Below are positions 4,490 to 15,824 of a stretch of DNA of 64,000 bases, in pieces. Position numbers and translations under genes: made by a program. Source of the DNA: Streptomyces zhihengii (lineage in GTDB: Bacteria > Actinomycetota > Actinomycetes > Streptomycetales > Streptomycetaceae); the NCBI RefSeq assembly GCF_016919245.1, contig NZ_JAFEJA010000001.1, positions 6,525,953 to 6,589,952 of the forward strand, given 5' to 3'. A model generated the notes under the pieces. The model saw nothing but the letters and a program-made list of their open reading frames with translations, searched no databases and was not told the origin of the DNA. Every line of letters begins with the position of its first letter. Position 1 is the stretch's first letter.

Positions 4490-5569
4490 GTGGTCCGCGC
4501 AGCAGTCCTGCCCTCCGTCGGATCTCCGCTGGAGATCACCGCCATCGACCTCCCCGACCCCGGCCCCGGTCAGGTCCGGATCAGGCTCACCGCCGCCGGG
4601 GTGTGCCACTCCGACCTGTCCCTGTCCGACGGCACCATGCGGCTGCCCGTCCCCGCCGTGCTCGGGCACGAGGGGGCCGGCACCGTCGTCTCCGTCGGCG
4701 AGGGCACAACCGGCCTCGCCCCCGGCGACGGCGTCGTCCTCAACTGGGCGCCCTCCTGCGGCGTCTGCCACCCCTGCTCCCTCGGCGAGGTGTGGCTCTG
4801 CAACGACGCCCTCACCGGCGCCGGCCGCGTCCACGCGGTGGCACAGGACGGCACGCGGCTCCACCCGGGCCTCAACGTCGCCGCCTTCGCCGAGGAGACC
4901 GTGGTCCCCGCGAACTGCGTGCTCCCCGTGCCCGACGGCATCCCGCTCGCCGACGCGGCCCTGCTCGGCTGCGCGGTCCTCACCGGCTACGGCGCCGTCC
5001 ACCACTCCGCCCGGGTGCGCGAGGGCGAGTCGGTCGCCGTCTTCGGCGTCGGCGGCGTGGGCCTCGCCACCCTCCAGGCCGCGCGGATCGCGGGCGCCGG
5101 GCAGATCGTCGCCGTCGACGTCTCGCCGGAGAAGGAGGGCCTGGCCCGCGCGGCCGGCGCGACCGACTACGTGGTCGCCTCCGACACCACCGCCCGCGAG
5201 ATCCGGAAGCTCACCGGCGGACACGGCGTCGACGTCGCCGTCGAGTGCGTCGGCCGCGCCGTGACCATCCGCACCGCCTGGGAGTCCTCCCGCCGCGGCG
5301 GCCGCACCACGGTCGTCGGCATCGGCGGCAAGGACCAGCAGGTCACCTTCAACGCCCTGGAGATCTTCCACTGGGGCCGCACCCTGTCCGGCTGCGTCTA
5401 CGGCAACTGCGACCCCGCCGCCGACCTCCCGGTCCTCGCCGCCCTCGTCCGCGACGGCTCCCTCGACCTGTCCGCGCTGGTGACGGACCGCATCACCCTG
5501 GAGGACATCCCGGCGGCCTTCGACGCGATGCGCGCGGGGAAGGGCGGCCGCGCCCTCGTGATGTTCTGA
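4490..5569 (+). CDS. Zinc-dependent medium-chain alcohol dehydrogenase
   Basis: 359 residues starting with GTG at 4490. The catalytic-zinc motifs GVCHSD and GHEGAG, a structural-zinc loop with four Cys (CGVCHPCSLGEVWLC) and a Rossmann GVGGVG turn mark a zinc medium-chain dehydrogenase. It resembles the subgroup that includes S-(hydroxymethyl)mycothiol dehydrogenase, encoded at 43179 in the same window, but is a separate paralogue. It lies 17 bp behind the aldehyde dehydrogenase, so the pair probably oxidises an alcohol in two steps. The substrate is unknown. Confidence 0.9.
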   Translation: MVRAAVLPSVGSPLEITAIDLPDPGPGQVRIRLTAAGVCHSDLSLSDGTMRLPVPAVLGHEGAGTVVSVGEGTTGLAPGDGVVLNWAPSCGVCHPCSLGEVWLCNDALTGAGRVHAVAQDGTRLHPGLNVAAFAEETVVPANCVLPVPDGIPLADAALLGCAVLTGYGAVHHSARVREGESVAVFGVGGVGLATLQAARIAGAGQIVAVDVSPEKEGLARAAGATDYVVASDTTAREIRKLTGGHGVDVAVECVGRAVTIRTAWESSRRGGRTTVVGIGGKDQQVTFNALEIFHWGRTLSGCVYGNCDPAADLPVLAALVRDGSLDLSALVTDRITLEDIPAAFDAMRAGKGGRALVMF

Positions 5570-5640
5570 CGCGCGTGCCGGGGGCCGGGCCCCTCGTGAC
5601 GCTCCGAAGCGCGCTGTTCCGGCGCGCTGTTCCGACGCGC

Positions 5641-5676
5641 GCGCCGGGGGCCGGGCCACCACCCGGCCCCCGGCGC
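5641..5676. terminator. Strong bidirectional hairpin
   Basis: GCGCCGGGGGCCGGG and its exact complement form a 15-bp stem around a 6-nt loop. It lies downstream of the alcohol dehydrogenase and just beyond the decayed minus-strand ATP-binding remnant, so it can terminate transcription from either side. Confidence 0.6.
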
Positions 5677-5688
5677 GGGTCGGCCCCC

Positions 5689-5787
5689 GTCCAGCTCGCA
5701 CCACACGGTCTCGCCGCCCGCCCGGCGCTCCGCGCCCCACCGCACGGCGAGCGCCTCCGGCAGGGCCAGACCGCGCCCCGACGGCAT
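5689..5787 (-). pseudogene. Remnant of an ATP-binding (HATPase) regulator
   Basis: Read on the minus strand, 33 codons give SGRGLALPEALAVRWG followed by ETVWCELD. This is the C-terminal G2/ATP-lid end of the small anti-sigma-like ATPases that usually sit divergently beside XRE-DUF397 pairs in Streptomyces. The N-terminal two thirds are absent, and the sequence abuts an XRE remnant at 5787. It is therefore a deletion relic. Confidence 0.6.
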
Positions 5788-5885
5788 ACGATCAGCTCAG
5801 GGCCGCCGCACTGTCCCCGGAGGCGTCCCTGGCCATGATCGACGCAGCGGCAGAGGACTACCGACATGGCAAGCGGCCGGATTGA
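5787..5885 (+). pseudogene. Remnant of an XRE-family (DUF5753-type) regulator
   Basis: An open stretch encodes YDQLRAAALSPEASLAMI and continues to a stop at 5883-5885, overlapping the DUF397 start at 5866. This is the usual C-terminus of the helix-turn-helix protein that precedes DUF397 genes. The DNA-binding and sensor parts are missing; the frame meets the opposite-strand ATPase remnant directly, marking the deletion point near 5787. Confidence 0.6.
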
Positions 5886-6081
5886 CCTGGACGCAGTCGC
5901 TTGGCGGACGAGCAGGTACAGCAACGGCGACGGCGGCGAGTGCGTCGAGGTCGCGGACGGTCTCCCCGGGCTCGTCCCCGTCAGGGACTCCACGCGGCCG
6001 GGCGGGCCCGTGGTGGTGGTCGGGGGTACGGCGCGGGCGGTGTTCGTCGGGGCGCTGGACGCCCCCGCCGCTACGGCCTGA
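5866..6081 (+). CDS. DUF397 domain protein
   Basis: A 71-residue DUF397 protein with the family core AWRTSRYSNGDGGECVEVA and the closing VRDSTRPGGPVVVV. These proteins pair with XRE regulators and are implicated in development and antibiotic control. Here the cognate XRE gene is reduced to its last 32 codons, so the gene is an orphan survivor. Its end overlaps the convergent gene at 6071 by 11 bp. Confidence 0.85.
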   Translation: MASGRIDLDAVAWRTSRYSNGDGGECVEVADGLPGLVPVRDSTRPGGPVVVVGGTARAVFVGALDAPAATA

Positions 6082-6526
6082 CGGAGCGGGCCAGCCACGG
6101 GGTGAGCCCGTTCAGGAGGATCAGCTCCTTGTAGGTCTCGTCGCCCGGCAGCGGCACCACCAGCCACTCGCCCACGGGGAAGAACCTGCCCTGCACATAG
6201 GCGAGCCCGCCGAAGACGGACCGCAGGAAGCCCGGCACCGAGTCGCGCGGGACGTCGTGGAACTCGACGTCCTCCACGCTCACCCTGGCGTCCCCGTCGG
6301 CGAAGAGCCGTACGGTGACGGCCGGTTGCCCGTTCAGCTCCACGAACGCCTCGTGCGGCAGCGAGCCGTCCGGGTCGGTGGTGGTGAACGCGTCGGCCGA
6401 CTCGCGGCGCGAGACCTGGTCGGTCCCGATGTCGTCGGTGACGACGAGCTCCCGGTCGAACTCCCGCGCGACCTCGCGGATCGCGGCGACGGCGGCCTCG
6501 GTCGTCGGCAGATGTGGGTGTGCCAT
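6071..6526 (-). CDS. Hypothetical protein, 151 residues
   Basis: An acidic soluble protein (MAHPHLPTTEAAVAAIREVA at the start) with alternating beta-like stretches such as PAVTVRLFADGDARVSVED and no signal peptide or membrane segment. I do not recognise its family. ATG at 6526 is preferred over ATG at 6532; neither has a strong ribosome site. It lies downstream of, and on the same strand as, the MATE exporter gene, with a GC hairpin between them, so membership of that operon is uncertain. Confidence 0.6.
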   Translation of the reverse strand: MAHPHLPTTEAAVAAIREVAREFDRELVVTDDIGTDQVSRRESADAFTTTDPDGSLPHEAFVELNGQPAVTVRLFADGDARVSVEDVEFHDVPRDSVPGFLRSVFGGLAYVQGRFFPVGEWLVVPLPGDETYKELILLNGLTPWLARSVRP

Positions 6527-6550
6527 GGGCACGATGATGCCCGCTCGGGG

Positions 6551-6575
6551 GCCGCCCGCCGGGACGCCGGGCGGC
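6551..6575. terminator. GC-rich hairpin after the MATE gene
   Basis: GCCGCCCG and CGGGCGGC form an 8-bp stem, 11 bp downstream of the MATE stop on the minus strand. It could end the left arm of the peptide locus. Confidence 0.35.
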
Positions 6576-6586
6576 GGCGCCGGAGG

Positions 6587-7900
6587 TCAGGTGGAGACGG
6601 CCGCCGCGGCGCTCCGGTCCGGCACCGGCGGCTCGCGTTCCGGCAGGGAGCGGTGGAGCAGCCACTCGTTGACCGCGCAGCCGAGCGCCACACCGCTGCA
6701 CGCCAGGACCGCGCTGTCCAGCAGGAGCCCCACGACGAACAGCGGCAGCGCCAGGGCGAACTCCTGGACGAGGCGGCCGCGCAGCACGGTGCCGAAGCGG
6801 CCGGCGGCCTTGTGCCGGCCCTCGGAGACCGCCGCGAGTACCCGGAACGGCAGCGCCACCGCCTGGCAGGCGATCAGCGCCCCGAGCCAGTGCGCGGCCT
6901 CGCCCCGCAGGCCGTACAGCCAGGCGCCGGGGCCGAAGGCGGCCACCAGCAGGGCGCCCGCGACGGCCGAGGAGATCAGCGCGAACCGGCGGCGCAGCGC
7001 CGCCCACTCCCGCGCGGACGCCTCGTCCGCCGCCGCGACCATGCCGGTGGCGTTGGCCAGCGCCCCCACCGGCAGCAGCATCGCGGCCACCAGGACCAGC
7101 CCGGCGGAGAAGCCCGCGAGCTGTCCGGACCAGGCGGCCCGTGCGGCCAGCAGGACGACCAGGACGAGTTCGAAGCCGAAGCGGGAGAGGGCGTTCAGCC
7201 ACTCCGTGGCCATGTTCCGCGCGGCCTGCCGCAGCCACCGCAGGATCTCGGCGGCCCGGGTGCGCACCGCCAGGTGGTCCCGCAGCAGCCACAGCGTGAC
7301 CACCCACTCCAGGACGGCGATGGCGCAGGTGGACGCGTACCCGCCCGCGAACCCGAGCCCGAGGCCGTACACGAACCACACGTCCAGCGCCGCGTTCAGC
7401 ACCACGGCGGCCGCGTACAGCCGCAGCAGGGGCCGCCCGCGCCGCAGCGCGAACAGCACCATGGCCCCCACGAACTGCGCCAGCCGGAACGGCGTGGCGA
7501 CCAGCAGCCAGAACAGCGCGGCTCCCGCGTGCTCCCGGACGGCCGGCGCGGCGATCAGGGCGTCGGCCACCCACGGCATCAGCACCAGCCCGAGCGCACC
7601 GATCACGGCGCCCAGCAGTGTCGCGCCGGCCAGCCCGCCCTGCACCGCGCGCCGGCGGGCGTGCGCGGTGGCGGCGCCCGCGACGAGCAGGCCCACCACG
7701 GGGCCCATGGCCATCGCGGTGAGCGAGTCCACCAGCAGCAGCCGTGCCGGAAGCGCGGCCGCGGCGACGGCCTCCTCGCCGAGCCGGCTGACGACCCACA
7801 GATCGGTCTGCGCGATCGTCTGGCCCATGACCGACGCGAGCATGATCGGTCCCATCAGGGACAGCACCCGGCGGCCGAGCGGGACGCCGGAGGCGTTCAC
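6587..7900 (-). CDS. MATE-like multidrug/peptide exporter
   Basis: 437 residues with about twelve hydrophobic segments and a MATE-like arrangement (SLMGPIMLASVMGQTIAQTD near the start, then the repeated half with RWLRQAARNMATEWLNAL). The GTG start at 7900 overlaps the stop of the preceding gene as GTGA, so translation is coupled to the MNIO operon. A reading frame continues upstream to 8320, but that part is antisense-like noise. In this context the natural role is export of the modified peptide. MATE versus another MOP-superfamily member is not certain. Confidence 0.8.
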   Translation of the reverse strand: MNASGVPLGRRVLSLMGPIMLASVMGQTIAQTDLWVVSRLGEEAVAAAALPARLLLVDSLTAMAMGPVVGLLVAGAATAHARRRAVQGGLAGATLLGAVIGALGLVLMPWVADALIAAPAVREHAGAALFWLLVATPFRLAQFVGAMVLFALRRGRPLLRLYAAAVVLNAALDVWFVYGLGLGFAGGYASTCAIAVLEWVVTLWLLRDHLAVRTRAAEILRWLRQAARNMATEWLNALSRFGFELVLVVLLAARAAWSGQLAGFSAGLVLVAAMLLPVGALANATGMVAAADEASAREWAALRRRFALISSAVAGALLVAAFGPGAWLYGLRGEAAHWLGALIACQAVALPFRVLAAVSEGRHKAAGRFGTVLRGRLVQEFALALPLFVVGLLLDSAVLACSGVALGCAVNEWLLHRSLPEREPPVPDRSAAAAVST

Positions 7901-8439
7901 CCCGTCCGCCACACGAACTCCCCGAAGTCGCCGCGGGGCGACAGGCACCAGCGCACCCCCTGCTCCGGTTCGAGCCCGGGGACACGGGCCAGCTTGACCC
8001 GGGCCCGGTCCAGCGGGCCCGCGCCCTTGACGCCGACCACCACCTTGGGGGCGAGCAGCGAACTGGTCAGCGCCAGCCCGCGCTCGCCGTACCCCGACGC
8101 GGCGAACCACCGCGCCGCCGCGGCGGCGAGCAGCTCGGTGTGGTCGGCCTCGTCGAGCGGCACCTCGCGCTCCGTGAGGTGGTCGAGGAAGTGCAGGTGC
8201 ATCCGCCAGTCCAGCACCCTGTCCCCGGCGTCGGCCCACTCCAGGAAGGCGTCGTACACCCGCACGGTGTCGCCCAGGCGGGCCGTGAGCGCGGGGACGC
8301 GGTCGAAGAGCTGGTGCCACCGGATGCGCAGGGCCTCCTGGGCGATCAGACGGGCCCGGCCGCCCGCCGGCAGCGCGTCACGCGCCGCTGGGCTGAGGTA
8401 CGCGTCCAGCAGCGCGGACGGCCGCACGTGCTCGCTCAA
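7897..8439 (-). CDS. Probable partner protein of the MNIO enzyme
   Basis: 180 residues, starting with TTG at 8439 behind GGAGAGCGG; ATG at 8466 is the alternative. It is helical at the N-terminus (LDAYLSPAARDAL, EALRIRWHQLFDRV) with a basic/beta C-terminus. It contains no enzyme motif that I recognise. MNIO enzymes of RiPP pathways (MbnB/MbnC, TglH/TglI) usually act with a separately encoded partner that binds the precursor. Its position directly behind the MNIO gene, with overlapping ends on both sides, fits that job. The function is inferred from position, not from a motif. Confidence 0.6.
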   Translation of the reverse strand: MSEHVRPSALLDAYLSPAARDALPAGGRARLIAQEALRIRWHQLFDRVPALTARLGDTVRVYDAFLEWADAGDRVLDWRMHLHFLDHLTEREVPLDEADHTELLAAAAARWFAASGYGERGLALTSSLLAPKVVVGVKGAGPLDRARVKLARVPGLEPEQGVRWCLSPRGDFGEFVWRTG

Positions 8440-9196
8440 TGTCCGCTCTCCATTCGTCCGGCACATGGTTGGCGTCCCGTTCGACCACCAGCGTGGCGTC
8501 CGGTCGCGCGTGCGCGGCCGCCCGGGTGAGCAGGTCGAGGGTGCGTGCGCTCAGTTCCACGTCGTGGCTGTCGATGATCAGCGAGGGGTCGACCGGGGAG
8601 GGGCGGTAGCCGGCCAGGTGGTACCGCCGCCCGACACCGGGCAGGGCCGGCCACGCGTCCGCGGGTTCGCCGGTGTTCAGCTCGGCGACGACGGCGTTGG
8701 AGAGGTCCAGCAGCACCTCGCACCCCGACCGCTCGACCAGTTCGGCGTACGCCTCGGCCTGCGGGCGGGCGCCGGGGGCCTTGGAGGGGAAGTTCTCCAG
8801 CGCCAGCGTGCAGCCCAGCCGCTCGCGCCACTCCCGCGCGCGGGTGACCACCGGCTCCCAGTCGCCGTAGTCGGCCTCGTGCGAGGTCGGCAGCGGACGT
8901 CCGCGGTGGACGAAGTGTGCGATGTGGTCGCTGACGTAGAGGAAGCCGCACTCGCGCTGCCAGCGGTCGACCAGCCCGGCGTAGAACTCCAGGCGCTCCG
9001 GCTCGGGGTCGAGGAAGCGCGACAGCATGATGTGGCAGCCCACCGGGAGATCGCCGATCACCTCCCGGAACGCCGCCGGATCGATGTGGGCGAAGCCGTC
9101 CACCAGGACCTCGACGAAGTCGACGTGGCCCGAGTCCCGCAGGGAGCAGGCCAGTTCGAGGGTCTCCGGTGAGGTGACGTTGACGCCGATCAGCAT
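8378..9196 (-). CDS. MNIO (DUF692-like) multinuclear iron oxidase, second copy
   Basis: 272 residues with a TIM-barrel pattern and conserved blocks matching the MNIO metal ligands: HIMLSR (His55), YVSDHIAHF (His91), LALENF (Glu134), LLDLSNAVVAELN (Asp164, Asn167), YHLAGY (His193) and IIDSHD (Asp209, His211). MNIO enzymes oxidise Cys, Asp or other side chains of ribosomal peptides using a mixed-valent iron cluster. ATG 9196 overlaps the upstream gene's stop by 7 bp. It differs strongly from the neighbouring MNIO-like gene, so it is not a recent duplicate. Confidence 0.78.
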   Translation of the reverse strand: MLIGVNVTSPETLELACSLRDSGHVDFVEVLVDGFAHIDPAAFREVIGDLPVGCHIMLSRFLDPEPERLEFYAGLVDRWQRECGFLYVSDHIAHFVHRGRPLPTSHEADYGDWEPVVTRAREWRERLGCTLALENFPSKAPGARPQAEAYAELVERSGCEVLLDLSNAVVAELNTGEPADAWPALPGVGRRYHLAGYRPSPVDPSLIIDSHDVELSARTLDLLTRAAAHARPDATLVVERDANHVPDEWRADIERARAAVRAAGRVPQPSGA

Positions 9197-10332
9197 GAGG
9201 CCAGTCTCTCCTTCGCGAAGCGGAGCAGGTCGTACTTGGCCACCACCACGCCGTCCCGCTCGGACACGGGGACCTCTTCGAGGCTGAGCACGATGCGCTT
9301 GCCCTGCTCCCGTACGTCGGCGACCCATGCGTCGAACAGCACGGCGTAGGGCAGTCCGCGCTGTTCGCTCGCCTCCGGGAGCTTGGGGATCCAGGTGCGG
9401 CACAGCTGGCGCAGATAGCCGCGGCAGTGCTCGGCGCCGTAGTCGTGGGGACCGCCGGGGACGCCGCCCGGCGCGGAGGCGCTCGCGGCGACGGCGGCGG
9501 CGCGGGCGAAGTCGGCGTAGTACAGGTCCTGCTGGTCGGTCCAGCGGGCGTCGGCGTGCTCGACCACGATCTGCACCGGGCGGTCATCGGGGAGCAGCCG
9601 CTGGTGCACCACGGTGTCCAGCAGGGCCCAGACGCCTTCGTGGACGGCCTCCGCATGGCCGTCGTGCAGGGTGCCGTCGCGGCCGGTGCGCACGCCGGAG
9701 AGATGCACTTCGGCGACCTCGCTCCAGGGCACGGCGCCGAGCAGAAGTTCCTCCGGCATATGGCAGTTGACCGCGTCGATGTACAGGTGGGCCAGATCGA
9801 CGATGAGTCCGGCTCCGGTGGTCTCGCAGATGCGTGAGACGCAGCGCCAGGTGTCGAGGATTCCGCGGGCGCCGGCGGAATAGCAGTTCGCGTTCTCGAT
9901 CCAGACCGGGAGCCCGGATTCGCGCCCGAGGCGGGTCAGGAAGCGGACGGCGCGGCTCTCCTCCTCCGCCGTCCCCGTGAAATGCGAGTGCAGTCCGAAG
10001 GAGCCGCCGCCGACGGCCCGGTCGCCGGTGACGTGCACGCCGACCGACACCGGGGCGGTCGTCCGGGCGGCTGCCTCGTCGAGGAGATGGCCCACGAAAG
10101 CGTCCTGCCGGGAATGGCTCTCGCAGATCGCCGTGCGGCTCAGATGCAAGGAGAAATCGGGAACGGCGGGTGCGTCGTCGAGCGATTCCCATCGCCGCCA
10201 CTCGGGAAATCCGAATTCGACATAGGGATTCCCGCCGTGCAGGGAAAGCCTGCGATCGGCATCGGGATGCAGGAGCCCGGGAGTAAAAGCACCACCGACG
10301 CGAATGTCTGCCGTACCGGCCAATCCGTTCAC
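9190..10332 (-). CDS. MNIO (DUF692-like) family protein, first copy
   Basis: 380 residues from GTG 10332 (behind AAGGGGCGG). Barrel blocks like those of DUF692 are seen: VSVGVHV (His100), VWIENANCY (Glu146), LIVDLAHLYIDAVN (Asp179, His182, Asn189), EVHLSG (His210), LHDGHAEAV (Asp224, His226) and IVVEHAD (Glu258). It is about 100 residues longer than the second MNIO, with a C-terminal extension ending KYDLLRFAKERLASC. It is the first enzyme after the 21-residue peptide gene. Family membership is less certain than for its neighbour because the ligand spacing differs. Confidence 0.68.
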   Translation of the reverse strand: MNGLAGTADIRVGGAFTPGLLHPDADRRLSLHGGNPYVEFGFPEWRRWESLDDAPAVPDFSLHLSRTAICESHSRQDAFVGHLLDEAAARTTAPVSVGVHVTGDRAVGGGSFGLHSHFTGTAEEESRAVRFLTRLGRESGLPVWIENANCYSAGARGILDTWRCVSRICETTGAGLIVDLAHLYIDAVNCHMPEELLLGAVPWSEVAEVHLSGVRTGRDGTLHDGHAEAVHEGVWALLDTVVHQRLLPDDRPVQIVVEHADARWTDQQDLYYADFARAAAVAASASAPGGVPGGPHDYGAEHCRGYLRQLCRTWIPKLPEASEQRGLPYAVLFDAWVADVREQGKRIVLSLEEVPVSERDGVVVAKYDLLRFAKERLASC

Positions 10333-10436
10333 GGAATCCGCCCCTTCACGCCGTAGTGCCGCCCGGTCATTCCCTCGGCATTCCGAAGAAATGGGAACGT
10401 GGATGCGCCGGTTGTGGCCGGCGCATCCCACACCCT

Positions 10437-10502
10437 TTAGCGGATGTAGTCGCCGCAGGTGAGAGCCTCGGCAACAACCTCGATCTCTTCAATGTCAATC
10501 AT
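10437..10502 (-). CDS. Candidate 21-residue RiPP precursor peptide
   Basis: A 22-codon frame starting ATG 10502 directly behind AAGGAGGTC, one of the best ribosome sites in the window. The peptide begins MIDIEEIE, is acidic, and ends TCGDYIR with a single Cys. An acidic leader with a Cys-containing tail fits the substrates of MNIO enzymes, two of which follow on the same strand. The codons use A/T at third positions more often than the neighbouring genes. The frame is open upstream to 10727, but the ribosome site decides for the short form. It is also conceivable that it is a leader peptide controlling the operon. Confidence 0.6.
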   Translation of the reverse strand: MIDIEEIEVVAEALTCGDYIR

Positions 10503-10538
10503 TACGACCTCCTTGGAGTGATCTTCTCGGGCGGCATC

Positions 10539-10568
10539 ACCATAGCTGAGGTGATCTGCCGCACACAA
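10539..10568 (-). promoter_or_regulatory. Possible promoter of the left arm
   Basis: Read on the minus strand, TTGTGT (10568-10563) and TATGGT (10544-10539) are 18 bp apart and would give a leader of about 30 nt before the 21-residue peptide. The region is visibly richer in A/T than its surroundings. Confidence 0.3.
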
Positions 10569-10723
10569 GGCATTCACAAAGAAGCTGAAGACGTATTTCT
10601 GGTATTGCCAAAATGGGCCAGTGGGGCGGAGGCGATACATCGGGCCATTCGCCCGCTCGTCTCTCCAGTCGGACTTTTCGGCCATGTGGACGCCGTGTAA
10701 AGCGGGCTGTTCGGTCGAAGTCG

Positions 10724-10743
10724 GCACGGGAGCGCTCCTGTGC
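10724..10743. promoter_or_regulatory. 20-bp inverted repeat, candidate operator
   Basis: GCACGGGAGCGCTCCTGTGC matches its reverse complement at 18 of 20 positions. It lies between the two divergent arms and could bind a regulator acting on either. No regulator gene is present in the locus itself. Confidence 0.35.
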
Positions 10744-10926
10744 GGTGTCCCGCGTCCGGAACCCGTGCGTGCCGCCCCCGGGCGTCAGCGCCCGGCCGCG
10801 CGTAGCGTGGAAGGAGAACGTCAACCGGAGCGGCACGCTCCGCGCCGAACCTCCGAGTCCGCGCCGCACGCCCGATTCCGGGCCGTACCGTGTCGCCCCT
10901 CCTCCGGACAGGAGGCCCGACTCACC

Positions 10927-11169
10927 ATGACCATGCCCCCGTTGACCGCGCACGCCGCCCTGGGCGGTGCCGCGGAGCACTACCGAAGGCCGGCCGCCGG
11001 ACCGGTGGCCACCGGGGGCCTGATCGTCCCCCAGGGCGACCAGGCCTGCATCAACATCCTCGTCGAATGCATGTCCTCCTGCCACGACGACAACTGCCAG
11101 TGCTACTGCGCGCACCTGGCGTCCGCGTGCGGTGGATGGCCCTCGCCGCCGTGCCACATGAGCGAGTAG
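10927..11169 (+). CDS. Candidate Cys-rich RiPP precursor, 80 residues
   Basis: ATG 10927 follows GGAGG at 10911. The first 40 residues are Ala/Gly/Pro-rich and free of Cys. The last 40 contain eight Cys (positions 41, 48, 52, 57, 59, 61, 68, 76), including NCQCYC, and end PSPPCHMSE. A plain leader followed by a Cys-dense tail is the layout of a modified-peptide precursor. There is no hydrophobic export signal. It starts the right arm and overlaps the PatA-like protease gene. Whether the tail carries thioethers, disulfides, azoles or MNIO-made groups cannot be told. Confidence 0.6.
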   Translation: MTMPPLTAHAALGGAAEHYRRPAAGPVATGGLIVPQGDQACINILVECMSSCHDDNCQCYCAHLASACGGWPSPPCHMSE

Positions 11170-12038
11170 CGCCGCAGGCCGGCCCCACCTGGCGGCAGGC
11201 CCTGCGGATCGACCCGCTCATGACACGGACGGACGGCAGCGGTGCCGTGCCCATCGGCGTCCTGGACGGCCCCGTGGCGGCGCTGCGGGCGGACCGGCTG
11301 GCCGCCGCGGTCGAACCGGTGCCCCGCGAGCCGGGTGCCGGGTCCGGACCGGTCCGGGACAGTGCGGCGCTGCGCCACGGCACGGCCGTGGCCGGTGTTC
11401 TGGGTGCCGCTCGCGGCAGCGGGGCGCCGGGGGTCTGCCCGGGGTGTCCGCTGCTCCTGCGCCCCGTGTTCACCGAGGACCGCTTCTGGACGTCCGCCTC
11501 CGAACTGGCCCGCGGCATCGACGAGTGCCGGCTGCGCGGCGCCCGGCTGATCAACGTCAGCGCGGCATTCGCCACCGCCACCGCCACCGCCACCGCGGCC
11601 GCGGCCTCGGCCGAGCTGACCGAGGCACTCGATCTGGCGGGCCGTCACGGAGTCGTCGTGGTCGCGGCGGGCGGGCAGCGGGGGCGCGTGGCGTCGTCGC
11701 CCCTCGTCTCGCACCCGGCCGTCCTGCCCGTCGTACCCGGTGACCTCGGCGGACAGCCCCTTCCCCGGGCGGACCTGAGCCCGTCCGCCGGACGGCGCGG
11801 GCTGCTCGCGCCCGGTGCGCCGCTCTCCTCCCTGGCACCGGACGGGGGACTCCGGGAATTCGGCGGGAGCAGTCTCGCCGCCGCACTGGTCACGGGCGCG
11901 CTCGCGCTCGTCTGGTCCCTCGCTCCCGGTCTGCCCTCCGCGCACCTGCTGTGGGCGGCACGCGGGGCGGGCCGCCCGCGACGCCGTCTGGTGCCGCCCC
12001 TGCTGGACGCCCACCGTCTCGTCGAGGAAGTGATCTGA
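11136..12038 (+). CDS. PatA-like subtilisin-family (S8) protease
   Basis: 300 residues. The S8 triad is present: Asp44 in IGVLDGPVAAL, His81 in LRHGTAVAGV and Ser246 in GGSSLAAALVTG. The order and wording of blocks (VLDGPV, ARGIDECRLRGARLINVS, GLLAPGA) closely follow PatA, the cyanobactin protease that removes precursor leaders. The oxyanion Asn block reads AAGGQRG, so Asn is replaced by Gln181. ATG 11136 lies inside the preceding gene; ATG 11220 is possible but would cut the conserved TWRQAL segment just before the core. There is no secretion signal, so it acts in the cytoplasm. Confidence 0.82.
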   Translation: MALAAVPHERVAPQAGPTWRQALRIDPLMTRTDGSGAVPIGVLDGPVAALRADRLAAAVEPVPREPGAGSGPVRDSAALRHGTAVAGVLGAARGSGAPGVCPGCPLLLRPVFTEDRFWTSASELARGIDECRLRGARLINVSAAFATATATATAAAASAELTEALDLAGRHGVVVVAAGGQRGRVASSPLVSHPAVLPVVPGDLGGQPLPRADLSPSAGRRGLLAPGAPLSSLAPDGGLREFGGSSLAAALVTGALALVWSLAPGLPSAHLLWAARGAGRPRRRLVPPLLDAHRLVEEVI

Positions 12039-12292
12039 TGCCCGGCACACCCGATCGGGACGGGCCGCCGCCCGGCGGCCGGCCGGACCCGCCGGCACCG
12101 GCACGCCACCGGGTCCGGCTGCCCGACTTCCTGGTGCAGCGGGAGACGGGCCTCGGGGACACCGTCTCCCGGGCCACCGCGTTCGCACGCATCCGCCCCT
12201 GCGGAGGGTGCCGGCGGCGGGCGGCGGCTCTCAACGGCTGGCTCAGCATCGCCCCCCGCGGGCGCCGGACGACAACACACGGAGAACCATGA
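12038..12292 (+). CDS. Small CxxC protein between the PatA-like and PatG-like genes
   Basis: 84 residues. The start ATG overlaps the protease stop by 1 bp (TGATG) and its own stop overlaps the next start (ATGA), so the three genes are translationally coupled. The N-terminus is Pro-rich; the C-terminal half has GLGDTVSRATAF, RPCGGCRRRAAALN and a final basic stretch. The CGGC pair could bind metal or be a modification site. I do not know a function; a second precursor or an adaptor are both possible. Confidence 0.6.
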   Translation: MPGTPDRDGPPPGGRPDPPAPARHRVRLPDFLVQRETGLGDTVSRATAFARIRPCGGCRRRAAALNGWLSIAPRGRRTTTHGEP

Positions 12293-13230
12293 ACGAGAAC
12301 GAGAACGTCCCCGTGCCCGAACCGGTCCTCCCGCCGACCGAGTCCGGCCCGGCCGGCCCGGCGGACGCGGTTGCCCCGGCCGCATCCCCCGCCGACCCGC
12401 CACCGGAGGTCTCCGGCGGATGCGGATGCGGATGCGGTGGTGCGGGCGGTCCGCGGGGCGCCGGCGGCCACGTGTACGCCGTCGGCCGGGTCGAGGCCCG
12501 CTTCCCCGACCTCGGGGTGGAGAAGGAGCTCGAACAGGCCGTCGGCAGGACGGACACGCGCGGCATGACCGACGGCCAGGCCGTCCACACGGTGCTGAAC
12601 GAACCGGCCAACCGCTATCTGGCACGTCAGATGTGCTGGGTGCTGACGATCGGGGGCATCGACGCCTATCTCCTCGTCCCGCGGGACAGCGCCGAGGTGG
12701 ACCTGCTCGTGGAGACCGTCCGCCCGACGCCCGGGGCCGGGGACGTCGACGTGGTGATCGGCACGCTCGGCGGCCTGGCGCCCCCCGACCGCTGCAACGG
12801 CCTCACCCTGCCGCAGGTCGGCTTCGAGCAGCTCTACTCCTTCGACACCGCGAGCTTCCTCGACCGGCTGCCGCCCCCGGACGGGATCGAGGACGACGCC
12901 TTCCGGGCGTCCGCCGAAGAGGTGCTGAGCAGGGTCACCGAACTGACGGACAACACCGGCTCGACGGACCGGCACCGCGCGGTCAACTACCTCGCGCTGC
13001 GCTATCCCCGGATCTACTCGGCCGCCGCCGCCCAGTACGCGAAGAACTGCGCGCTCACCGGCGTGGACACCTCCCGGTCGGAGGTCTCCCGGACCCGGAC
13101 GCTGATCGACGTGGTGTTCACCTACACCGACCGGACCACCAACGTGGCCGACCGGCTGGCGGCCCGCGTCGACGTCACCGGGATGTTCCCCTTCCTCGCC
13201 GCCCCGCTCTCGCCGTACTGCGCCCACTGA
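12289..13230 (+). CDS. Stand-alone PatG C-terminal-domain-like protein
   Basis: 313 residues. The first 60 are Pro/Ala-rich and contain CGCGCGG at 45-51. From residue 61 (HVYAVGRVEARFPDLG) to the end the text follows the poorly understood C-terminal domain of cyanobactin PatG proteins: the VLTIGGIDAYLLVP strand, RAVNYLALRYP, SRTRTLIDVVFTYTD and the closing ARVDVTGMFPF. In PatG this domain is fused to an S8 macrocyclase; here it is separate, with the protease encoded two genes upstream. Its biochemical role is unknown. Confidence 0.7.
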   Translation: MNENENVPVPEPVLPPTESGPAGPADAVAPAASPADPPPEVSGGCGCGCGGAGGPRGAGGHVYAVGRVEARFPDLGVEKELEQAVGRTDTRGMTDGQAVHTVLNEPANRYLARQMCWVLTIGGIDAYLLVPRDSAEVDLLVETVRPTPGAGDVDVVIGTLGGLAPPDRCNGLTLPQVGFEQLYSFDTASFLDRLPPPDGIEDDAFRASAEEVLSRVTELTDNTGSTDRHRAVNYLALRYPRIYSAAAAQYAKNCALTGVDTSRSEVSRTRTLIDVVFTYTDRTTNVADRLAARVDVTGMFPFLAAPLSPYCAH

Positions 13231-13282
13231 CGGCCGGTCCCCGCACTGCCGCGCGGCACCGGCCGGGACCGCCGCCGCCCGG

Positions 13283-14251
13283 TCAGCGCGAGGGCTCCCC
13301 GCGCCGGGAGGCCGCCTCGGCCCCCGCCTCGCCGCCCGTCCCGGCGGCCGCGGTCCGGGCCCGGGAGCGGGAGACGGCGACCCCCGCCAGGCAGAGCGCG
13401 CCGCCCGCCAGCGTGAGCGGTGCCGGGACCTCGTCCAGGGCGAGCCAGGACATCAGCACCACGAGAGCGGGGGCCGCGTACGTGGTCGCGCCCATCCGGC
13501 CCGCCGTCGTGCGCGCCAGCGCGTACGCCCAGGTCGTGAAGGCGAGGGCGGTCGGGAAGACGCCGAGGTAGACCATGTTGAGGGTCGCCGAGAGCGGCGC
13601 GTCGGACGCCTGCCCGACGAGCTGCCCCGCGAACGGCAGGCAGGCCACCGTGCCCACCAGGCAGCCGAAGGTCGTCACCTGGAGCGCGCTGGCGTGGGCC
13701 AGGGCGGGCTTCTGCGCCACCACACCGGCCGCGTAGCCCACGGCCGCCACCAGGCACAGCACCACGCCCAGGGTGGAGGAACCGCCCTCGCCGGACATGG
13801 ACAGGCCCACCACCACGGCGCCCGCGAAGGAGACCGCCATGCCCGCGACCAGCCGGGGCGGCAGCCCCTCGCCGAGCAGCCGGGCGCCGAGCAGCGCGAT
13901 CAGGATCGGTCCGATGTTGACGACCATCGCCGCCGTGCCCGCGTCGACCTGCTGCTCGCCCCAGTTGAGCACCACCATGTAGACGCCGAACCACAGCAGG
14001 CCCGACACCGCGATCCCCGGCCACGCGGCCCGCGGCGGCAGGCCCTCGCGGCGGATCAGCAGGACGCACCCCAGGGCGAGGGAGCCCGCGAGCAGCCGGC
14101 CGAGGGCGAGCGCGCCGGGGGAGTAGGCGTCGCCCGCGCTGCGGATGGACACGAAGGCCGAGGCCCACAGGACGACGGTCACGGCGGCGGCCGCGAGGGC
14201 GGGCCAGGCGGCCCGGGGCGAGTGCGGGAGGAGGTTCGGCTCGTTCGTCAT
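13283..14251 (-). CDS. EamA/DMT-superfamily transporter
   Basis: 322 residues with ten hydrophobic segments in two EamA repeats (LWASAFVSIRSAGDAYSPGA in the first; NMVYLGVFPTALAFTTWAYA in the second). Such proteins export or exchange small metabolites in the cytoplasmic membrane. The gene follows an ArsR-type regulator by 33 bp on the same strand, so it is probably its target. The last 30 residues are an Ala/Gly/Arg-rich cytoplasmic tail. Confidence 0.88.
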   Translation of the reverse strand: MTNEPNLLPHSPRAAWPALAAAAVTVVLWASAFVSIRSAGDAYSPGALALGRLLAGSLALGCVLLIRREGLPPRAAWPGIAVSGLLWFGVYMVVLNWGEQQVDAGTAAMVVNIGPILIALLGARLLGEGLPPRLVAGMAVSFAGAVVVGLSMSGEGGSSTLGVVLCLVAAVGYAAGVVAQKPALAHASALQVTTFGCLVGTVACLPFAGQLVGQASDAPLSATLNMVYLGVFPTALAFTTWAYALARTTAGRMGATTYAAPALVVLMSWLALDEVPAPLTLAGGALCLAGVAVSRSRARTAAAGTGGEAGAEAASRRGEPSR

Positions 14252-14283
14252 GCAGGGACCGTACGGCCGCGACGCTTCGGCGC

Positions 14284-14982
14284 TCACCGCAATTTCCCGG
14301 GCTCGATGCCGAGCAGCTCGTGCAGCGCCCGCTCGCCGTCCCCGGTGACCTTCACGGCCCGCTCCGAGCCGATCCGCACGCACCAGCCCGACTCCAGCGC
14401 GTGGGCGCACAGCCGGGCACCGGCGACCCCCGCGAGGTGGGGGCGGCGCTCGGTCCAGTCCAGGCAGCCGCGGGCCAGCGGCCGGCGCCCGGTGCGCGCG
14501 AGCGGGATGCCGGCCTCGCCGAACCAGGCGACGCCCCGCTCGGTGAGCGCGAAGCCGGAGTCCTGGGTGAGCAGCCCGCGCGCCGTCATGGCCGCGGCGA
14601 CGGTGATGCCGAGGCGCCCGGCGAGGTGGTCGTAGCAGGTGCGGCCCCGGGCCATGGCGTGGGCGGCGCTCGACTCGCGCAGGGAGCGCGGCCGGGGCGC
14701 CGCGCCCGGTGCGGCGTACGCGGCCAGCTCCTCGACCAGGTGCGCCACCCGGTCGTCGGCGAGGCGCACATAGCGGTGGCGCCCTTGGCGCTCCTCGGCG
14801 AGCAGACCCCCCGCGACCAGCTTGCCGAGGTGCTCGCTCGCGGTCGAGGGGGCGACCCCGCCGTGCCGCGCCAGCTCGCCGGCCGTCCAGGCGCGCCCGT
14901 CGAGCAGGGCCAGCGCGAACCCGGCGCGGGTCTCGTCGGCGAGCAGCGAGGCGAAGGCGGCGAGGTCCCGGGAGGAGGTCAT
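14284..14982 (-). CDS. ArsR-like winged-helix regulator
   Basis: 232 residues. Residues 5-85 form an ArsR winged helix (LADETRAGFALALLDGRAWT, ELARHGGVAPSTASEHLGKL, GRHRYVRLAD). The C-terminal 140 residues contain a second helix-rich domain (ARGRTCYDHLAGRLGITVA) seen in a common actinobacterial subgroup of drug- or metal-linked regulators. No Cys cluster typical of metal sensors is present. It is upstream of, and co-directional with, the EamA transporter. Confidence 0.85.
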   Translation of the reverse strand: MTSSRDLAAFASLLADETRAGFALALLDGRAWTAGELARHGGVAPSTASEHLGKLVAGGLLAEERQGRHRYVRLADDRVAHLVEELAAYAAPGAAPRPRSLRESSAAHAMARGRTCYDHLAGRLGITVAAAMTARGLLTQDSGFALTERGVAWFGEAGIPLARTGRRPLARGCLDWTERRPHLAGVAGARLCAHALESGWCVRIGSERAVKVTGDGERALHELLGIEPGKLR

Positions 14983-15034
14983 GCCCCCAGCATGCGGCAG
15001 CCATGTTTCGGCGACGGCCGAAGGGTCGCGGACG

Positions 15035-15103
15035 GAAGCGGGCCGTGTCGGGGTGCGTGACGGGAAGCGGGCCGTGTCGGGGGGCGTGACGGGAGGCGGG
15101 CCG
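15035..15103. repeat. 29-bp tandem repeat, 2.4 copies
   Basis: A unit beginning GAAGCGGGCCGTGTCGGG repeats at 15035, 15064 and (partly) 15093 with exact 29-bp spacing. It lies upstream of the ArsR-like gene and downstream of the TetR gene; both read on the minus strand. There is no visible coding role. Confidence 0.7.
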
Positions 15104-15131
15104 CACGGCCGCCCACGGGCCGGGGCGGCCC

Positions 15132-15797
15132 TCAGGAGCCCGAGACCGCCCAGTCGCGCCGGGCGCCCGACTCGTACTGCAGGGCCAGCCCGTCCAGCAG
15201 CGCGCGCAGCCCCGTCGCGAACGCCCCCTCGTCGACCTGCTCCTGGCGGTCGGCCAGCAGGTGGGCCTGGCCCAGGTGCGGGTAGTCGGCCGGGTCGTAG
15301 GCGTCCGCGTCGTCGACGAAGCCGCGGGCGAAGGAACCGAGCGCCGAGCCGGTGATGAAGTAGCGCATCAGCGCGCCGATGTACGTCGCCTGGGCGGGCG
15401 GCCAGCCCGCGCGGACCATGGCGCCGAAGACCGCGTCGGCGACCTTGAGGCCGGCGGGGCGGCGGCCCGGCCCCCTCGCCAGCACGGGGACGGTGTTGGG
15501 GTGGGCGCGCAGCGCGGAGCGGTAGGAGAGCGCCCAGTCGTGCAGCGCGGTGCGCCAGTCCCGCGGGTCGTCCTCGTCGAACATCGACAGGTCGACACGG
15601 GCGCTGACGGCGTCGGCCACGGCGTCCAGGATCTCGTCCTTGTTGCGGAAGTGGTTGTAGAGCGAGGGGCCGCTGACCCCCAGCTCGGCCGCGAGCCTGC
15701 GGGTGGAGACCGCGTCCAGCCCCTCCGCGTCGACGAGCGCGCCGGCCGCCTCGACGATGCGGTCACGGCTGAGGAGGGGCTTGCGCGGTCGGGCCAT
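15132..15797 (-). CDS. TetR-family regulator of acyl-CoA/aldehyde metabolism genes
   Basis: 221 residues with a TetR helix-turn-helix (TRRLAAELGVSGPSLYNHF) followed by a helical ligand-binding domain. ATG 15797 (MARPRKPL) has no ribosome site but lies close behind TACTAT, so a leaderless message is possible. It is divergent from an acyl-CoA dehydrogenase with a palindrome at 15825-15842 between them. The same palindrome recurs before the dehydrogenase operon at 3 kb, so the protein probably represses both; an acyl-CoA or aldehyde-derived ligand is inferred. Confidence 0.88.
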   Translation of the reverse strand: MARPRKPLLSRDRIVEAAGALVDAEGLDAVSTRRLAAELGVSGPSLYNHFRNKDEILDAVADAVSARVDLSMFDEDDPRDWRTALHDWALSYRSALRAHPNTVPVLARGPGRRPAGLKVADAVFGAMVRAGWPPAQATYIGALMRYFITGSALGSFARGFVDDADAYDPADYPHLGQAHLLADRQEQVDEGAFATGLRALLDGLALQYESGARRDWAVSGS

Positions 15798-15824
15798 GCG
15801 GCACATAGTAGGGCCTGGCAAAAT

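Follow-up and report, generated by a model that had tools for sequence, protein, structure and literature searches.

Head-to-head juxtaposition of a methanobactin-like operon and a separate RiPP-like cassette on a genomic island of Streptomyces zhihengii

Results

Two divergent gene arms on one island

The 64,000-nt window of the Streptomyces zhihengii genome analysed here (all coordinates below are counted within it) carries two divergent gene arms, at 6587-10502 on the minus strand and at 10927-13230 on the plus strand, separated by a spacer of 424 nt. According to profiles and sequence, the left arm has the methanobactin operon order mbnA-X-B-C-M and includes two multinuclear non-heme iron-dependent oxidative enzymes (MNIO). 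The right arm, delineated by profiles and homologues, combines a Cys-rich peptide, an S8 protease, a CxxC protein and a stand-alone protein with PatG_D and PatG_C domains. An earlier note on this DNA had described the left arm as a 21-residue peptide, two MNIO/DUF692-like proteins, a partner and a MATE protein in overlapping genes, and the right arm as an 8-Cys peptide, an S8 protease, a CxxC protein and a PatG C-terminal-like protein, likewise overlapping. All nine genes are open frames where that note placed them, the right-arm overlaps can be read directly from the sequence, and the PF05114, MbnB, MbnC and MbnM profiles match on the left; its family calls (MNIO, PatG C-terminal, S8 protease of the PatA kind) also hold by profile, with none of the NCBIfam matches of the S8 protein exceeding its cut-off. 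What does not hold is the proposed MNIO/PatG hybrid pathway: the two arms are independent gene sets, and the hybrid is a juxtaposition. Loci of relatives are labelled L below, with L009 for Streptomyces sp. SM10, L010 for Kitasatospora MAP5-34 and L011 for S. katrae ISP-5550; the S. zhihengii genome itself is G000.

A methanobactin-like operon in the left arm

Three genes of the left arm, all on the minus strand, have methanobactin proteins as their best NCBIfam matches. MNIO2 (8378..9196) is MbnB-like (TIGR04159, 8e-65; PF05114, 4e-21; PDB 7tcr, 7e-47), its partner (7897..8439, with the start codon uncertain between 8427, 8439 and 8466) is MbnC-like (TIGR04160, 1e-17; PDB 7fc0_F, 1e-9), and the MATE exporter (6587..7900) is MbnM-like (NF045578, 6e-52). 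Dou et al. (2022; PMC8888699) name the tri-iron ligands and the general base of the Vibrio protein VcMbnB; the corresponding H, H, E, D, N, H, D, E and D columns, in which we assigned iron ligands and the general-base Asp by motif rather than on a structure, are invariant in 13 MbnB-like proteins including MNIO2. A protein search with MNIO2 returned 47 relatives at E 0.001, the nearest from Streptomyces sp. NPDC053728 (94%) and NBC_00096 (68%), along with one from Nonomuraea (41%). One scan of named genomes with the MbnB alignment yielded 15 loci, three of them actinobacterial (SM10, Kitasatospora MAP5-34 and S. katrae ISP-5550). The A-X-B-C-M order is found in all four actinobacterial loci, the window included, with the S. 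katrae stretch stopping inside the MATE gene. The two MNIO genes of the window overlap by 7 nt, and no protease gene was seen inside 6472-10714.

The mbnA-like precursor gene (10437..10502, minus strand) was recognised from homologues and from comparison with Vibrio MbnA (VcMbnA) of PMC8888699. It encodes 21 residues, MIDIEEIEVVAEALTCGDYIR, with Cys16 as the sole Cys, and such a small Cys-containing peptide beside the core genes is what methanobactin operons have. Compared with SM10, three of the 21 codons differ synonymously and none changes an amino acid, leaving the peptide identical, and the S. katrae and Kitasatospora loci each hold two tandem copies of a homologue, MIDIQDIEVMAEALTCGSYNKG. 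Because change against SM10 is only synonymous and tandem homologues exist in these two genomes, the 21-residue frame is not a chance one. The window precursor ends in TCGDYIR, those of S. katrae and Kitasatospora in TCGSYNKG, and VcMbnA, a group V precursor with one Cys, in TCGAFNK according to PMC8888699. Thus a TCG-x-aromatic core is common to all of them, and where the tails from Kitasatospora, S. katrae and Vibrio carry Asn, those from the window and SM10 carry Ile20. Directly 3' of mbnA lies a stem-loop (10385..10440, minus strand) that folds more stably than shuffled sequences in 4/4 loci (z -5.6 in the window, -5.0 in L009, -2.4 in L010 and -4.2 in L011). It is weakest in L010, where 5 of 200 shuffles fold equally well, and in S. 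katrae and Kitasatospora its position is kept and its sequence is not. This strong stem-loop may be an attenuator.

The second MNIO, MNIO1 (9190..10332, minus strand; PF05114, 5e-18), occupies the MbnX/MovX place and has 380 residues from a GTG start chosen by alignment with L009. It differs from its SM10 counterpart at 17, 11 and 70 sites in codon positions 1, 2 and 3, respectively, and since the differences concentrate at position 3 we consider it a constrained gene. Most positions of its metal site are kept, with His replacing the Asn ligand and one Glu lying one column off in the alignment. The full-length model was poor (predicted local distance difference test, pLDDT, 56.6), and the fold search nonetheless ranked MNIO structures first. 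A C-terminal domain of about 90 residues (9193-9459, minus strand) reached a pLDDT of 92.5 when modelled from four sequences; no PDB structure matched it in the fold search. In a search for a deeper MNIO1 family, 1/396 Actinomycetota genomes matched, namely the S. zhihengii genome itself, and 147 plasmid records were returned with none covering 80% of the protein, those listed being partial matches to generic MNIO.

According to PMC12452194, the second MNIO of the Vibrio clusters is MovX, which acts on a C-terminal Asn and has a winged-helix domain; further descriptions of MovX were drawn from PMC12257519 and PMC12636315. From the description in PMC12452194 we infer that the Asn of TCGAFNK is the MovX target. 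An Asn in the precursor tail is present in L010 and L011, and Ile20 stands there in the window and SM10. Judged from these sequence comparisons, what appears new here is that the Asn at the presumed MovX target has been replaced by Ile while the second MNIO stays constrained.

A PGF-leader cassette around stand-alone PatG domains in the right arm

The right arm opens with an 80-residue, 8-Cys precursor-like peptide (10927..11169, plus strand) that begins with MTMPPLTAHA and has GGLIVPQG ahead of its Cys-rich part. Its gene is overlapped by that of the S8 protease (11130..12038, plus strand; start uncertain), recognised by profiles and by the D, H and S of the triad. Next come an 84-residue CxxC protein (12038..12292, plus strand), recognised by homologue alignment and carrying RLPDF, GLGD and CGGC motifs, and the 313-residue PatG_D/PatG_C protein (12289..13230, plus strand), whose matches to PF18065 (5.7e-28) and PF18047 (1.1e-27) are both above the Pfam gathering scores. 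The S8 and CxxC genes overlap by 1 nt (TGATG), the CxxC and PatG_C genes by 4 nt (ATGA). The S8 protein matches PF00082 (3e-13) and the PatA/PatG model TIGR03895 (2e-19), the latter at 69.6 bits against a cut-off of 421; its best NCBIfam match, mycosin (TIGR03921; 1e-21, 77.5 bits), is also far under the cut-off.

PatG_C was present in 33 of 392 Streptomyces genomes. We fetched 20 stretches of 4-17 kb around PatG_C matches, with preference given to short open frames. A homologue of the window's PatG protein is present in 17, and the other three (L063, L071 and L073, with Pfam PatG_C but no match to the window protein) were left out of the counts. An S8 gene occurs in 16 of these 17 loci (not in L060) and a CxxC gene in 15 (not in L057 and L072; 1.5 kb away in L058), while a Cys-rich peptide with a related N-terminus, hand-picked from lists of small open frames, was found in 13 (not in L057-L060). 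Sequence homologues of the 8-Cys peptide itself occur in 4/20 loci (L065, L067, L069 and L072), directly before the S8 gene in the first three. Many cassette peptides start with MRIPGF, MSIPGF or similar, of which the window's MTMPPLTAHA is a diverged form, and seven of the peptides (the window's and six others) matched no NCBIfam or Pfam model at cut-off. Most CxxC proteins read R(L/I)PGF, the motif of the Cys-rich peptide leaders. In an alignment of 19 (the window, 15 of the 17 loci and the plasmid loci L116-L118), P-x-F, GLG, a Thr and both Cys were kept in all. Similarly, 19 aligned S8 proteins all keep D, H and S, and 17 keep the oxyanion Asn, at which the window has Gln; these triad and oxyanion roles are presumed ones, assigned by motif.

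Five plasmid records also match the PatG protein. The match lies beside a Tn3 transposase in Streptomyces NBC_01568, is accompanied by a CxxC gene and no S8 gene in the fetched stretch of S. xanthophaeus, by S8, CxxC and two PGF-leader peptide genes in Mesorhizobium B2-1-1 and by an S8 gene in Sinorhizobium mexicanum, and has 26% identity in Photobacterium GJ3, whose record carries no annotation. The two peptide genes of the Mesorhizobium plasmid (L118; 5790-6050 and 6217-6522 of that stretch), both Cys-rich, are missing from its incomplete gene table. Two different peptide genes stand in tandem in some cassettes (L054, 7421-7813; L061, 1428-1830; L062, 7369-7939; and L118). No paper on the PGFTAE motif was found in the open-access literature, to which our literature searches were confined. 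The right arm is assigned, by likeness of sequence, to a putative RiPP-like family (ribosomally synthesized and post-translationally modified peptides) with a PGF-type leader, unannotated so far and new here.

Each arm occurs without the other

The left module is a discrete block (6472..10714, minus strand) shared with SM10 at 90% DNA identity over 4251 aligned columns. Because the shared DNA ends at 10714, the boundary between the arms falls inside the 424-nt spacer and the left block carries its own upstream region. No right-arm homologue was found in the 8.7 kb upstream of the SM10 peptide gene; other parts of L009 and L010 gave CxxC matches at E 0.002-0.009 that appear fortuitous. PatG_C was found in 0/3 of the L009, L010 and L011 genomes in a scan whose controls were also without a match and for genomes whose completeness is not stated; the same family query was positive in the scan of 392 Streptomyces genomes. 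In those 392 genomes, the MbnB query matched only G000, besides four generic MNIO of 31-36% identity.

Conversely, the right arm stands without the left arm in 32 of the 33 PatG_C-bearing Streptomyces genomes. Some MNIO is present in 30 of the 33 and none in three; it shares the PatG_C contig in 14 and is adjacent only in G000, the next distances being about 40 kb (G104) and 127 kb (G307), with the others farther. Homologues of MbnB, MNIO1 and MbnC were absent at E 0.01 from the 20 right-arm stretches, except for a partial weak MbnB match in L071 (E 0.006). The earlier note had suggested looking for PatG_C/MNIO co-occurrence and had named independent arms as the outcome that would count against a joint system; adjacency in 1/33 genomes, that of S. 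zhihengii itself, is that outcome. Its idea of one pathway with a two-part substrate is therefore not supported. Of its other option, two pathways sharing a control region, the two pathways stand and the shared region is the poorer fit. A conserved shared control region was considered and dropped: the SM10 block ends within the spacer, and no sigma-70-type promoter or terminator pattern was found in 10330-11000. Two pathways with adjacent, separate control regions fit better because the left block has an upstream region of its own.

The island and its site

Both arms lie on a 7.8 kb genomic island (5570..13330, without strand), flanked by an alcohol dehydrogenase gene and an EamA transporter gene. 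In a DNA search with 4490-15806 across 61 genomes (own and relatives), 55 of which matched, the flanks (to ~5570 and from ~13330) adjoin each other elsewhere, and in 12/12 fetched relatives the homologous site has no match to the island interior. The flanks are 140-240 bp apart in six of the 12 and 1.6-1.75 kb apart in three, two have 10.9 kb of other genes between them, and one (L106) has other genes at the site and a right flank match without its first part. Since the flank gaps differ in this way, both arms sit in a site that is variable among relatives; variability between the alcohol dehydrogenase and EamA genes is seen in the window (5570-13330), L104 and L105. Repeats bracketing the island were sought, and no listed repeat pair occupies the two ends; within the left end there is a 35-nt direct repeat (89%; 5557-5657).

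The left end of the island also carries a DUF397 gene (5866-6081; PF04149, 1.6e-15), preceded by what seems, on reading the sequence, to be the tail of a regulator in another frame. A 151-residue protein (6071-6526) lies mostly outside the SM10-shared block and has similar DNA (70-77%) elsewhere in several relatives; it had no match in Pfam or NCBIfam profile scans. The same profile scans found neither a TonB-dependent importer nor a heterocyclase among the island genes scanned. Elsewhere in the S. zhihengii genome there is a third, generic MNIO gene (G000:C1:1804123-1804920; 3e-78), and a similarly scoring generic MNIO occurs in 29 of the 33 PatG_C genomes searched, its own included.

Discussion

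The locus very probably comprises two independent peptide-product modules placed head to head in one 7.8 kb island, a methanobactin-like operon and a separate RiPP-like cassette. The data show profile-based family membership, the order of the genes, the separateness of the arms and the limits of the island; we infer the chemical steps, export and copper binding as follows. MbnC would bind the precursor MbnA through its leader, and MbnB together with MbnC would convert Cys16 in the TCG core oxidatively into an oxazolone-thioamide. MNIO1, standing where MovX does in the Vibrio clusters, would modify the C-terminal tail, and the MATE protein would export the product, probably a copper binder. In the right module, the S8 protease would cut the PGF-leader Cys-rich peptide, probably near the GG..VPQ stretch, with the PatG_D/PatG_C and CxxC proteins as possible accessory or docking factors. 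Most likely, then, the left-arm product would be a methanobactin-type chelator derived from Cys, modified and exported, and the right arm would yield a Cys-rich peptide freed by proteolysis.

A single pathway, in which MNIO enzymes and PatA/PatG-like proteins act jointly on both peptides, would account for arms that are adjacent, divergent and on the same island, but we regard it as very improbable given that each arm occurs without the other, that the SM10-shared block stops in the spacer and that the right-arm stretches, bar the weak partial match in L071, are free of MbnB, MNIO1 and MbnC homologues. Coupling of two pathways in this strain is a little easier to entertain and still unlikely. 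The right-arm S8 protease could, for example, remove the MbnA leader, which we consider because the left module encodes no protease (none was seen in 6472-10714); yet SM10 keeps an identical 21-residue peptide with no PatG_C found in its genome, and the MbnA peptide is without a PGF-type leader.

Within the reading of two independent modules, what MNIO1 does is close to an even call. It may depart from MovX chemistry, by oxidising Asp18, Tyr19 or Cys16 or by trimming the tail in a new way: the residue aligned with Asn is Ile20 in both the window and SM10, the gene is under constraint by its codon-position pattern, and its metal site is mostly kept apart from the His for Asn and the displaced Glu. 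Against this, its operon place equals that of the extra gene of group V operons, and it has an additional C-terminal domain as described for MovX, though one whose fold has no PDB match. The right arm might instead yield a secreted, disulphide-rich peptide of bacteriocin-like or signalling kind that is activated by proteolysis and not chemically modified, which is possible though somewhat doubtful. In a simple gene call, which missed some genes, on 23 stretches (the window, L009, L010 and the 20 PatG_C loci), no gene family apart from those of the cassette came up in more than three; this is consistent with such a peptide, but the conserved N-terminal leader, the stand-alone PatG domains and a CxxC protein that shares the R(L/I)PGF motif point to processing guided by a leader. 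Tentatively, and at somewhat less than even weight, we propose jointly that MNIO1 has been retargeted to Ile20 or Asp18 of TCGDYIR, and that the right arm represents a RiPP-like class not described before, present in Streptomyces and on rhizobial plasmids, whose PGF(T/A)xE leader would guide the S8, CxxC and PatG_D/PatG_C proteins to a Cys-rich core. If so, the retargeted MNIO1 would carry out a reaction new to MNIO enzymes, and S. katrae versus the window and SM10 would form a natural pair for the states before and after the change.

Several observations weigh against our interpretation. All three methanobactin matches of the left arm are under the NCBIfam equivalog cut-offs (218.9 of 325 bits for MbnB, 63.9 of 185 for MbnC and 177.1 of 285 for MbnM), and therefore its product may not be a true methanobactin. 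Although the precursor and gene order resemble group V, MbnB and MbnC are closer to groups I and III in a comparison that covers the three species with PDB entries (OB3b, Rugamonas and Vibrio caribbenthicus): MbnB is nearer to M. trichosporium (7tcr, 7e-47) and Rugamonas (7fc0, 3e-46) than to Vibrio (7dz9, 4e-36), and PDB sequence matches of MbnC follow the order Rugamonas (1e-9), M. trichosporium (3e-8) and Vibrio (0.64). MNIO1 is likened to MovX by operon place and description. As for the independence of the arms, SM10 is the only left-arm carrier whose upstream sequence is long enough to reveal that the right arm is missing alongside; 16 draft PatG_C genomes have their MNIO on other contigs, some of about 5 kb, so that closeness is possible there; and a MATE gene (25%, 5e-10) is also present in one right-arm locus, L068. 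Finally, both modules share one island, and hence they may be coupled in this strain.

Recognising a juxtaposition removes a false lead, the MNIO/PatG hybrid pathway, and leaves two points of interest: a second MNIO confronted with an altered residue in the precursor tail, and a RiPP-like family, as yet unannotated, that centres on stand-alone PatG domains. To our knowledge, methanobactin-like operons are known chiefly from Gram-negative bacteria; a compact Gram-positive operon with two MNIO, in which the presumed target residue has changed naturally, offers a ready test of shifts in MNIO specificity. We likewise know of no role assigned to PatG C-terminal domains, for whose study the right arm provides a minimal separable set of peptide, protease, CxxC protein and PatG_D/C.

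Among known systems, cyanobactin PatA/PatG (TIGR03895, PF18047, PF18065) shares with the right arm an S8 protease domain and the PatG_D and PatG_C domains. The window differs in carrying these domains on separate short proteins, in an S8 protein scoring well below TIGR03895, and in a Cys-rich PGF-leader precursor without a profile match in place of a PatE-like precursor with a heterocyclase nearby. The std cluster of PMC13174530 was set aside as a different MNIO pathway. With methanobactin operons (MbnA-B-C-M), the left arm has in common MbnB-, MbnC- and MbnM-like proteins in the same order, the MbnB/MbnC overlap and a tiny Cys precursor; it differs by its sub-equivalog scores, its single Cys, an extra MNIO between A and B, and the lack of a TonB-dependent importer among the scanned island genes. 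Within this family, the group V clusters of Vibrio and Photorhabdus, with MovX as second MNIO, likewise have a single-Cys precursor (TCG core in Vibrio) and, between mbnA and mbnB, an additional DUF692-like gene, as found here, whereas the window has an MbnB and an MbnC nearer to groups I/III and an Ile in place of the Asn in the TCGxxNK tail. In the accessible part of their survey, Kenney and Rosenzweig (2013; PMC3621798) report that group V operons have a single-Cys precursor and, adjoining it, an extra gene of weak DUF692 similarity; they saw no clear MbnC in group V and name no Streptomyces. A Vibrio MbnC was later crystallised (PMC8888699).

We found no paper linking S. katrae to methanobactin. 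Its operon may be listed in methanobactin reviews. The S. katrae ISP-5550 and Kitasatospora MAP5-34 operons are orthologous to the left arm in A-X-B-C-M order, with protein identities of 59-68% for X, B and C and for the MATE protein of Kitasatospora, and differ from it in having two tandem precursors ending in TCGSYNKG where the window has one ending in TCGDYIR.

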